From assembly GCF_009765975.1 (NCBI RefSeq), contig NZ_LMUJ01000032.1, forward strand, positions 139,182-203,181: a DNA stretch of 64,000 nt. Reading direction: 5' to 3'. Every line of letters begins with the position of its first letter. Position 1 is the stretch's first letter. Source of the stretch: Acidisphaera sp. S103. Its GTDB lineage: Bacteria; Pseudomonadota; Alphaproteobacteria; Acetobacterales; Acetobacteraceae. Below, piece after piece: positions 20,910-43,865 of the stretch. The translations under genes were made by a program, and so were the position numbers. The notes beneath the pieces were generated by a model. That model had not been told where the DNA came from. It was given only the letters and a program-made list of their open reading frames with translations, and ran no database searches.

Positions 20910-21142
20910 CCGGTCGGCTGCGGGAGGGGCGTCGGCTGACTCGCTTGTTGTTGGACTTCGCCCAAGCTTCTCGGAATGGCAGGTTCGGGGCGCCAGACCG
21001 GGATATTTGGGCGCGGTCTCTCCCATCGATATGGCCGGCTAAATAGAAACGCTCCATTGGTTGTCCGCGTTCGGAGGGATTCATGGTTCGTTAATATCCG
21101 CAGCGTAAGACCTTTCGGCGTCGGCGCGGACGCTTAGGCAGG

Positions 21143-21185
21143 TTTTATAAGGCGGATTAGCGGGATGAAGGTGGATGAAGGGGAT
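21143..21185 (+). repeat. Left terminal inverted repeat of the GxxExxY module
   Basis: The arm begins TTTTATAAGGCGGATTAG and continues as iterated GGNGGATGAA-like units. It matches the reverse complement of 21569-21611 over almost its full length with a few substitutions and short gaps. The GxxExxY start codon at 21165 lies inside it. Confidence 0.85.
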
Positions 21186-21557
21186 TTGCGGTTTTGGGCG
21201 CCGGTGACCGAGCGGGTTATTGGGTGTGCTTTTCGGGTTGCCAATGCGCTCGGTCATGGGTTCGTTGAGAAGGTTTATGAGAATGCCCTGGCGCATGAGA
21301 TGCGAAAAGCCGGGCTTGGTGTGGTGCAGCAGCGGGGGATCGTGGTCTTTTATGACGACGTGATTGTTGGCGAATATACCGCCGACTTGCTGGTCGAGGA
21401 TCAGGTTATCGTTGAACTCAAAGTTGTGGGCGCGCTGAGCGATGTGCATGTCCCGCAATGCCGGAATTATTTGCGGGCGACCGGCAAGCCGTTGTGTCTG
21501 CTGATCAATTTTGGCCAGCCCAAAGTCGAAATTCGCCGCATCACCGCCGGGGCCTGA
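21165..21557 (+). CDS. GxxExxY protein (PDDEXK-fold nuclease-like)
   Basis: The 130-residue protein has the family-defining G32-F-V-E35-K-V-Y38. It also has a PD-(D/E)xK-like core: E70-YTAD74 and, ten residues later, E84-L-K86. The C-terminal part (VPQCRNYLRATGKPLCLLINFG) is typical of the family (TIGR04256/PDDEXK_3). The biological role of the family is unknown. The first residues (MKVDEGD) are encoded by the left inverted repeat and the right repeat begins 11 bp after the stop. A second, core-deleted copy lies at 43427-43687. Confidence 0.9.
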   Translation: MKVDEGDLRFWAPVTERVIGCAFRVANALGHGFVEKVYENALAHEMRKAGLGVVQQRGIVVFYDDVIVGEYTADLLVEDQVIVELKVVGALSDVHVPQCRNYLRATGKPLCLLINFGQPKVEIRRITAGA

Positions 21558-21568
21558 TTGCGAGCGTC

Positions 21569-21611
21569 ATCCCTTTCATCCCCCCCTTATCCCGCTTAAT
21601 CCGCCTTAAAA
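21569..21611 (-). repeat. Right terminal inverted repeat of the GxxExxY module
   Basis: On the minus strand it reads TTTTAAGGCGGATTAAGCG followed by GGATAAGG and GGATGAAAGG units, mirroring 21143-21185. It begins 11 bp after the GxxExxY stop codon. Confidence 0.85.
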
Positions 21612-21692
21612 GAGAGGTGCCTTGGCCGGGCACACTGCTTCGGGCGTCCCGGTCGTGACGGTATCGGAGAGTCGGTGTCACGGGGCTTGGTG

Positions 21693-22397
21693 TTAGCCCG
21701 GTCTGGCGGGGCTTGCGCGGCTGTTTGTGGGCAATTCGTGGCTGGCCAAACTCGATCTGGCTATGGCTTCGTGGACGGTTTGGCCTGTTTCATCGGATCG
21801 CTGGTTCCAGGGTTGGTTGCTCAGCCAGGTCTCAAAAGCCGCGTCCTGAGAATTTAGGTCGTCTTCTGAGACGTGGTGTTCAATCCTGGGGTCCGGGTTC
21901 GTTGTTAGTGCCGGTTCGGGCCACGCCGCCTGATGGGGTCCAGCATCCGGATTCACCACCCCCAGCATTGAGCGTTCGGCGATATGCTGGGCCCATGCGT
22001 CCTGGTTGGCCGCGCCCTCGATCGCCTCCCGCTTCTGGCGCACCGCCTGGACCCGCATCAGGCGTGCGTGCGCGGACAGCGATGTCCGCACCATTGATCC
22101 GTATTGGGCGTTCAGGCGCATCACCAATTGGATGTCATCGGCGTTCTGACGGATCAGGCGCAACATCTCCTCGGCCTGGGCACGAGCGGCGATGCATTGG
22201 GCGGCGAGATCGGCTTCGTTCGCGTTGACCGGCAGCAGCGCCGCCACCTTGGCGATGGCGGCGTGGTTTCTGGTGCGCAGCGCTGCGGGCGTGTCATCGA
22301 GCGGCGGCGGCAACAAGTCGGTGAGGGTATAGACAAGCTGGTAATACAGGTGCGTGGCGAGATCGATGGTCTGAGGCGGCTGGGAAAAGGTTTCCAT
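21693..22397 (-). CDS. Hypothetical protein, helical, 234 residues
   Basis: I do not recognise a named family. The protein starts METFSQPPQTIDLATHLYYQL, with a mainly helical, charged first 130 residues rich in Ala, Arg, Gln and Glu that contain a possible coiled coil (residues 65-125). A low-complexity, Pro/Ser/Asn-rich C-terminus follows. No signal peptide or membrane segment is seen. The ATG at 22397 is preceded by AT-rich DNA. Codon usage looks like a real gene: the frame is long and the other frames are broken. It lies between the GxxExxY module and a membrane-protein gene facing the other way. Confidence 0.65.
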   Translation of the reverse strand: METFSQPPQTIDLATHLYYQLVYTLTDLLPPPLDDTPAALRTRNHAAIAKVAALLPVNANEADLAAQCIAARAQAEEMLRLIRQNADDIQLVMRLNAQYGSMVRTSLSAHARLMRVQAVRQKREAIEGAANQDAWAQHIAERSMLGVVNPDAGPHQAAWPEPALTTNPDPRIEHHVSEDDLNSQDAAFETWLSNQPWNQRSDETGQTVHEAIARSSLASHELPTNSRASPARPG

Positions 22398-22612
22398 TCC
22401 TTAGTGATAGATTAATATAGGAAATAAGTCAAGATTTGTTGATGCTGTTCTGGTCCGGTTCATCGAGTGAATATGGGCTGCGCCAGTTTTCCGTGGCTTG
22501 TCGCGGGCCGAAGCCTCCTCGTACAACGCTAGTAAAAACGGGAGGGCACGGTGATTGGTTGATCTGCAGCGAACGGATTGCGATCATCCCTCCTCCACTA
22601 CCGGTCTTCGTT

Positions 22613-43286: not shown

Positions 43287-43405
43287 GACTCGATAGAAAC
43301 CGCCCATGGGTTGTCCGCCGTTCCGGGAGATGCATGGTTCATTGGCGCCCGCAGCTTAAGGTCTTCGCGCCCCCTTCAGGCGTCGGCACGGACGTCAAGG
43401 TAGGT

Positions 43406-43446
43406 TTGTTAAGGCGGATTAGCGGGATGAAGATGGATAAAGGAGA
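43406..43446 (+). repeat. Left inverted repeat of the degenerate GxxExxY module
   Basis: It reads TTGTTAAGGCGGATTAGCGG then GATGAAG and GATAAAGG units, matching 21143-21185 with few changes. The former start codon at 43427 lies inside it. Confidence 0.8.
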
Positions 43447-43687
43447 TGCGCGGTTGCTGGGGCCGGTGACCGAGCGGATCATTGGGTGTGCTTTTCGGGT
43501 TGCCACTGCGCTCGGTCGTGGGTTCGTTGAAAAGGTTTCCGAGTCGAACCCGCGGTGGTCGGCGCTGAGCGACGTCCATCTCCCGCAATGCCGAAACGAC
43601 TTGCGGGTGACGGGCTAACCCCTATGCCTGTTGATTAACTTCGGCCAATCCAAAGTCGAAATCCGCTACATCACCGCCCAAGCCTGA
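43427..43687 (+). pseudogene. GxxExxY gene remnant with internal deletion
   Basis: It aligns with 21165-21557 from its start through the family motif region and again from CGCTGAGCGA to the end. About 130 bp between are missing, removing the D/E-x-K nuclease core. The motif Tyr codon is changed (GTTTCC instead of GTTTAT) and an in-frame TAA appears near 43616. It is therefore no longer functional. Confidence 0.85.
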
Positions 43688-43699
43688 TCGCGAAGGCAA

Positions 43700-43740
43700 C
43701 CCCCTTCATCCGCCCTTATCCTGCTTCATCCGCCTGAAAA
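43700..43740 (-). repeat. Right inverted repeat of the degenerate GxxExxY module
   Basis: The minus strand reads TTTTCAGGCGGATGAAGCAG followed by GGATAAGG and GGATGAAGG units, a diverged mirror of 43406-43446. Confidence 0.75.
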
Positions 43741-43865
43741 AAGAGAAGCCGTGGCTTTCGCAGGCCGCGTTTCGTTCACGGCGGGTCGGGCTGCCTGTGG
43801 AAACTCATACCGGCCGATGTTGACCGGAGAAGGCCAGGTCAACGGCGGCCGGCATGGACATCAAC

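Follow-up and report, generated by a model that had tools for sequence, protein, structure and literature searches.

The window, that is, the whole 64,000-nucleotide stretch of Acidisphaera sp. S103 DNA analyzed here, contains in its 21044-21625 region a GxxExxY/PDDEXK_3 nuclease gene (21165-21557, plus strand; 130 amino acids [aa]) enclosed by inverted repeats of 41 and 43 bp. The left arm (21145-21185, plus strand), defined by arm alignment and by pattern matches in the genome, consists of approximately 10-bp iterons (GCGGATTA, GCGGGATGAA and GGTGGATGAA) and overlaps the start codon of the gene, while the right arm (21569-21611, minus strand) was placed by arm alignment. Pairing of the two arms gave a local score of 48, compared with a mean of 21 (standard deviation of 5) for 180 mismatched upstream/downstream pairs from the same genome. 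The encoded protein matched PF13366 (E value of 5e-39; 133.7 bits versus a cut-off of 22) as its sole Pfam family and TIGR04256 (E value of 5e-40; 136.4 bits versus a cut-off of 35) as the sole match in its family search. All the motifs of the family are in place, namely, GFVEKVY (GxxExxY), YTADLLV and VELK (the D..ExK site) and H..Q...Y. The arm score and the family matches bear out the first-pass annotation, which had described a PDDEXK-type gene within inverted repeats of about 43 bp. A search of the window against Rfam yielded no match at the gathering threshold.

The arms are preceded by a leader (21040-21144, plus strand) that is common to other copies of the same subfamily, here called subfamily A. 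The leader starts at TAAATAGAAACG, the point at which homology between copies, including a copy in the congener G023, begins. Beyond the right arm lies a stretch (21612-22478) that, past position 21630, resembles only the paralogous locus L008 on contig C92, at 89%; it includes an open reading frame (ORF) of 234 aa without a Pfam match (21693-22397, minus strand). Altogether, the first unit and L008 have 1414 bp in common at 89%, 850 bp of which lie outside the unit.

Subfamily A is represented in the window a second time, by a damaged unit that retains both outer ends; alignments and empty orthologous sites delimit it to positions 43293-43811 (plus strand). Its left arm (43411-43450, plus strand; arm pattern and alignment) and right arm (43700-43743, minus strand; alignment) flank a gene remnant (43420-43687, plus strand; family model and alignment) that retains the N- and C-terminal parts and carries one stop, the D..ExK catalytic core having been lost through an in-frame internal deletion. 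The two window units have in common the leader, the two arms and the two ends of the gene, as had been proposed for a module at 43293-43753; the unit is nevertheless longer than proposed and reaches position 43811. Subfamily A units thus extend from about TAAATAGAAAC (21040 and 43293), and the second copy ends with GTGGAAACTCATACC (43811), a tail that the first unit does not have. Since the arms and flanks belong to the common part, duplication of the gene alone could be ruled out, and the earlier claim that the whole DNA unit had been copied holds.

Copies and vacant sites in the host and its relatives

The GxxExxY family model identified 32 pieces in the 8.37-Mb host genome, and the window arm pattern, with up to 3 mismatches allowed, matched 37 times, compared with no match for the same pattern read backwards. 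Arm pairs were found in 13 of the 15 host gene loci tested (scores of 40 to 64) and were absent from L007 and L010. The seven best of the 180 mismatched pairs (scores of 32 to 51) all fell within subfamily B or C. The arms of the subfamilies differ in sequence, and their grammar looks alike: the window type reads AAGGCGGATTAGCGGGATGAAGG, subfamily B AACGCAGATG...CACGCAGATG, subfamily C CACGGAGAACGACGGAGGATCACGAAG and others AATCTGTG or CTCTGTG.

In subfamily A, of which 28 loci were aligned (two of them may be halves of one element), approximately 105 bp before the arms and 70 bp past them are also copied. Subfamily B copies remain homologous for about 35 bp outside the left arm, so that the element does not always end at its arms. 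For L005 and L009, a subfamily C pair, the similarity is confined to the arms and the segment between them (arms at 1433-1916 and 1435-1916; homology over 1441-1914 and 1441-1915). Apart from the pairing with L008, the other subfamily A copies compared have only the unit, or a part of it, in common. Several of them have lost internal sequence while retaining the two arms; L029 and L045 carry an identical deletion junction at different sites, and folding of L034 gives a near-perfect hairpin (z of −14). Two half copies located 2.3 kb apart, L019 and L051 (C85:230.5k and 233.0k), look like one subfamily A unit split by another insertion. In addition, a repeat of about 70 bp (GTTGACGCTGACACATCAG...) adjoins the tail of some subfamily A units and occurs elsewhere in the genome (right flank of L056; G000:C56:229611, C1:5866, C113:284782, C58:36636, C98:315738 and C15). 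This repeat is possibly a target or a second repeat family.

In the congeners, the window arm matched 0 to 6 times in each of 28 genomes (29 genus genomes were searched), compared with 37 times in the host. Thirty of the 31 congener matches lay at the 3-mismatch limit, where the backwards control also gave 3; the only strong match, with a single mismatch, was that in G023. The G023 copy (L340) occupies a different site from those in the host, and its homology with the host copies is bounded by the same ends, CTAAATAGAAAC and GGTGGAAACTRATACC.

Empty sites were sought with joined-flank queries for the outer ends of four sites over the 29 genus genomes, host included, and the approach worked for one of them, the second window site. 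In five of the eight congener regions fetched (G023, G015, G012, G010 and G002), the orthologous site lacks the element, and the flanks are separated by 4 to 67 bp, compared with about 590 bp in the host. The other three regions (G005, G020 and G018) are uninformative, as their right flank is unrelated. One insertion in the host is a simpler account than five losses in the congeners. An arm-bounded version of the comparison retrieved only orthologous genes without the downstream element, with spacers that could not be aligned. No target-site duplication was evident by eye; the empty sites are diverged (67 to 88% identity in aligned pieces of the window site), and the spacers differ. Of the checks outlined in the first-pass annotation, the comparison of empty loci thus identified orthologues of the second window site that lack the element, with no target-site duplication evident by eye, and the search for further copies returned the 32 family pieces and 37 arm matches. 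Positions are not shared among the relatives either, given the host-specific arm type, the differently placed G023 copy and the five empty congener sites.

Filled and empty sites were also read in two groups outside the genus. A search of 30 Thioalkalivibrio genomes gave a match in 17, and the spacer was empty or short in 8 of these and filled in 7. In the filled spacers there are at least two types of iteron (CACAGAG and CACGAAG), which go with different proteins; no clear array was visible for a third group (L235 and L248) in the part of the alignment read. For Bacteroides, 80 genomes were searched, 30 loci were fetched and the spacer at radA was readable in 27, of which 13 contained a unit-sized insert and 14 were short (2 to 120 bp). 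In 11 of the 13 inserts, CACCACAGA tips lie at or near the radA stop codon; L277 has CGCAGATT units, and L275 has the gene with arms that are not clear. The nearest relative by flanks (93 and 91%), G131, has an empty spacer. All 12 ORFs extracted from 14 Bacteroides loci (none came from L254 or L257) are codirectional with radA. In L276, a palindrome built of short units and lacking a gene occupies the radA spacer. By eye, most empty Bacteroides and Thioalkalivibrio spacers are free of iteron arrays, the exceptions being L268 (Bacteroides), with a left-array remnant, and L237, with a single CACGGAG.

Iteron arrays with and without the gene

To survey the layout more widely, we used the best 80 GxxExxY loci of a scan of named genomes, 79 of which, from about nine phyla, had enough flanking sequence. 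An arm pair scoring at least 36 was present in 47 of the 79 loci, compared with 1 of 65 far-flank control pairs, and the remaining 32 had no strong pair at this score. Inward-facing arrays of at least two C[AG]CN[GA]A[GT] motifs on both sides were likewise found in 47 of these 79 loci (outward-facing arrays in 4 of 79; far flanks, 0 of 65). Among these best 80 loci, the arms are arrays of a CACAGAG-like motif spaced mostly by 8 (30 cases), 9 (20 cases) or 10 bp (10 cases), and the arm-bearing loci include, judging by the titles of their records, Proteobacteria, Bacteroidota, Chloroflexi, Verrucomicrobia, Acidobacteria, Planctomycetes, Spirochaetes, Armatimonadetes and Desulfuromonads. The GxxExxY layout is therefore pan-bacterial, beyond the scope of the first-pass annotation. 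Together with the 37 host matches, the absence of matches in the reversed control and the arm scores, these wider arm and array controls rule out a chance origin of the repeats, one of the three outcomes, none of them borne out, that the earlier reading had named as speaking against mobility.

Arrays of this kind also exist as doublets without a gene, and both the iteron nature of the repeats and the gene-less doublets are additions to the earlier picture. G312, a genome within the phylum sampled, contains 79 exact iteron triples; the seven places fetched comprised four doublets of 71 to 97 bp, one of 220 bp and two without a clear pair, and the L312 doublet folds into a near-perfect hairpin (z of −11). 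The Thioalkalivibrio doublets fetched (L318-L325 and L330) are mostly nested, the CACAGAG arrays being enclosed by CACGAAG arrays. Exact triples occurred in 24 of 299 sampled genomes, 9 of them without a detected GxxExxY gene, including G225 with 12 triples. The corresponding proportions (15 of 58 genomes with the gene and 9 of 241 without; Fisher P = 1.3e-6) were given no weight, as 14 of the 15 genomes with both belong to one family. Matches in the backwards control of the triples were confined to one genome (G436, 5 matches), which also contains a tandem array with an 8-bp unit, CACAGAGA (G436:C52:8661-8723). Doublets were seen in two genomes without a detected GxxExxY gene, G225 (L326 and L327) and G319 (L328).

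Across the 47 loci (of the best 80), protein identity correlated with arm similarity (Mantel r of 0.36; 0 of 2000 permutations), in contrast to the far-upstream control (r of 0.06; P = 0.28). At the Bacteroides site, pairing of a unit's own left and right arms averaged 53.4 over 13 units, compared with 36.7 crosswise (0 of 10000 permutations), and in 8 of them the unit's own right arm was outscored by one or more foreign ones. These tests are uncorrected for descent, and codescent of the unit would explain the coupling as well as recognition would.

A second protein family shares this arrangement. The four-helix-bundle family TIGR02436, which we take to be the S23/intervening sequence (IVS) family, was detected in 25 of 37 GxxExxY genomes taken from the best 80 loci, its model being silent in the control genomes and without a match in the host genome. 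Comparable inverted arrays were present at 16 of 30 of its loci and at 0 of 29 controls; by eye they consist of 7-bp units and contain no nuclease (L169-L198, e.g., L172, L180, L188 and L198). The Nostoc array (L188) is reminiscent of the cyanobacterial STRR heptads. As the four-helix-bundle proteins are not nucleases, a nuclease is not needed for the inverted-array layout.

Cargo of phages or plasmids is unsupported, if weakly so, for a single query protein: with the family member L001 (E value of 1e-5), there was no match among 50,697 phage records, and 8 matches were obtained among the 72,556 records of the host-biased plasmid collection PLSDB. At least one 'plasmid' match, from Bacteroides finegoldii (L249; NZ_OY725952.1), carries housekeeping genes, thrA, thrC and radA among them, and has the look of a chromosomal contig. 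Assignment to a defense or phage family was dropped, as the PADLOC anti-phage defense models gave 0 families at E values up to 1 and the PHROGs phage families gave no match.

The encoded enzyme

Fourteen diverse family members share the invariant residues E23, D63, E73, K75, H84, Q87 and Y91. The comparison of the fold with PDDEXK nucleases, suggested at the outset, was run on the paralogue L001 (structure model with a pLDDT of 91) and placed nuclease folds among the nearest at weak E values: the best match was an R2 retrotransposon structure (E value of 0.03), none reached 0.001, and SSO0001 (4ic1), which we take to be a Cas4, followed with a probability of 0.99 and an E value of 0.06, with other nucleases below. 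I-Bth0305I was also among the weak matches. While the nearest folds thus include Cas4/RecB-type PD-(D/E)XK nucleases, the sequence match, a profile hit to Cas4 4r5q, was below significance (E value of 0.15). According to one published account, a pipeline reported a GxxExxY gene where cas4 was expected (PMC8934634). An HUH tyrosine transposase is not encoded, as judged from PF13366 being the only Pfam match and from PD-(D/E)XK nucleases being among the nearest folds of L001.

Substitution rates indicate that the GxxExxY genes are under purifying selection, with a dN/dS of about 0.045 for a Bacteroides orthologue pair (dN of 0.053, dS of 1.18) and 0.17 for L006/L008 (dN of 0.028, dS of 0.161). 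In three further Bacteroides pairs, the synonymous sites were saturated.

Mobility of the unit and its proposed agent

The evidence that the unit is mobile is good, and we consider mobility very probable. That the unit's own nuclease is the moving agent we favor with moderate confidence at most. On balance, the GxxExxY genes probably constitute the single gene of pan-bacterial minimal mobile elements moved via their own nuclease. Such an element, of approximately 0.45 to 0.7 kb, would comprise one RecB/Cas4-like PD-(D/E)XK nuclease between terminal inverted iterons of 8 to 10 bp (typically ACCACAGAG-n-CACAGAG...). The nuclease would recognize its own iteron array as double-stranded DNA, or an arm-arm hairpin on a single strand during replication, and cut at the element ends, and repair or strand transfer would then put a copy at a new place. 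Gene-less doublets would be mobilized in trans, and the gene could stay at one site long term under purifying selection, as RAYT/TnpA-REP genes do. In its fullest form, which remains tentative and falls somewhat short of probable, this would be a new class of mobile DNA, a pan-bacterial counterpart of RAYT/REPIN systems in which a lone nuclease of about 120 aa suffices for movement by acting on the inverted iteron arrays, and the four-helix/heptad elements would be a sister class built on the same palindrome logic. The iteron triples without a GxxExxY gene, the 32 of 79 loci without strong arms and the armless L007 and L010 count against the explanation by the unit's own nuclease. The strongest counterevidence comes from the four-helix-bundle family, which suggests that the two either are parallel systems or share a third-party mover.

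Such a mover, another host or mobile enzyme (e.g., RAYT or an insertion sequence [IS] transposase), could shift the arrays with the GxxExxY and four-helix genes as cargo that benefits. This reading is unlikely, albeit one to be taken seriously: inverted arrays accompany four-helix-bundle genes without any nuclease, a gene-less palindrome of the four-helix kind (L276) lies in the same Bacteroides spacer, some arrays have no detected gene, and the ends of the window subfamily's unit lie outside the arms. However, arm sequence follows the GxxExxY protein across loci, as expected of recognition or strict codescent, and the difference between 7-bp units (by eye) and 8- to 10-bp units in the two gene families suggests gene-specific recognition. 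It is improbable that the palindrome instead acts at the RNA level, as a long transcribed stem, like that of the 23S rRNA intervening sequences, that protects or processes mRNA, with the protein acting on RNA or being incidental. The strong hairpins of two doublets (z of −11 and −14), the position of the Bacteroides units directly after the radA stop codon between codirectional genes (12 of 12 ORFs) and the S23 proteins of the 23S rRNA IVS, which are four-helix bundles encoded between inverted ends (PMC4990558), would fit such a role, but on its own this role would not account for the dispersal, the empty sites or the conservation of the nuclease's active site.

In a homing-type process, the nuclease would cut gene-less iteron palindromes and gene conversion would copy the gene in, which would account for arms common to gene-less palindromes and gene-bearing units, for the tendency of the arms of one element to match each other and for I-Bth0305I among the weak fold matches. 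Insertion nevertheless seems to be independent of a preexisting array, as most empty spacers are array-free by eye, and we regard homing as distinctly improbable. Ordinary segmental duplication and recombination, without dedicated mobility, would explain the 1414 bp common to L006 and L008, which continue 850 bp past the unit, but is highly improbable for the family: the other subfamily A copies compared have the unit or a part of it only, short doublets are dispersed in G312, and the G023 copy, which shares its ends with the host copies but lies at an unrelated position, largely refutes it.

Among known systems, the GxxExxY element resembles REP/REPIN-RAYT systems (TnpA-REP, REPtrons), for which two papers describe a single gene bordered by palindromic repeats, hairpin-forming dispersed doublets, enzyme-repeat coevolution and host-like gene retention (PMC3116915 and PMC8266576). 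The GxxExxY units are alike in these respects, their arm type going with the protein type, and their dispersed inverted doublets are hairpin capable like those of REPtrons. The enzyme differs, being of the PD-(D/E)XK type rather than HUH, the repeats are arrays of 8- to 10-bp iterons where REP sequences are single short stem-loops bearing GTAG, and the gene-bearing unit is itself multicopy. By analogy, the GxxExxY unit thus resembles REPtrons in function, not by enzyme. Terminal inverted repeats, internally deleted derivatives and lineage-specific bursts are typical of MITEs and small insertion sequences. All three are shared by the GxxExxY units, with the subfamily A unit passing its arms, but the latter have a single PD-(D/E)XK gene of 110 to 130 aa in place of a DDE transposase, and no target-site duplication was seen. 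We know of no PD-(D/E)XK fold that acts alone as a transposase.

The 23S rRNA IVS with its S23 protein is an element of about 0.4 kb with one small ORF and inverted ends (PMC4990558). It is of the same size class as the GxxExxY unit and alike in ORF and ends, but its protein belongs to another family and the orthologous GxxExxY sites read lie between protein genes; the four-helix loci examined have 7-bp units by eye, compared with 8 to 10 bp in GxxExxY arms. The Rpn (YhgA-like) proteins, nucleases that carry a transposase-like annotation (PMC5350276) and are reported to be toxin-antitoxin systems against phage (PMC10327210), belong to PF04754, whereas the window protein matched PF13366 only.

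We found no description of the GxxExxY/iteron-array layout in the open-access literature searched, subscription journals lying outside that scope. In the parts of the open literature consulted, TIGR04256/PF13366 is named in passing; a testable role can now be offered for it, and dispersed CACAGAG-type repeats can be linked to the GxxExxY family. The proteins of the 23S rRNA intervening sequences may belong to the wider context of these elements. If the nuclease is indeed the agent, it would represent a new enzyme class among lone DNA movers, operating with a very small program of one short gene and iteron ends.
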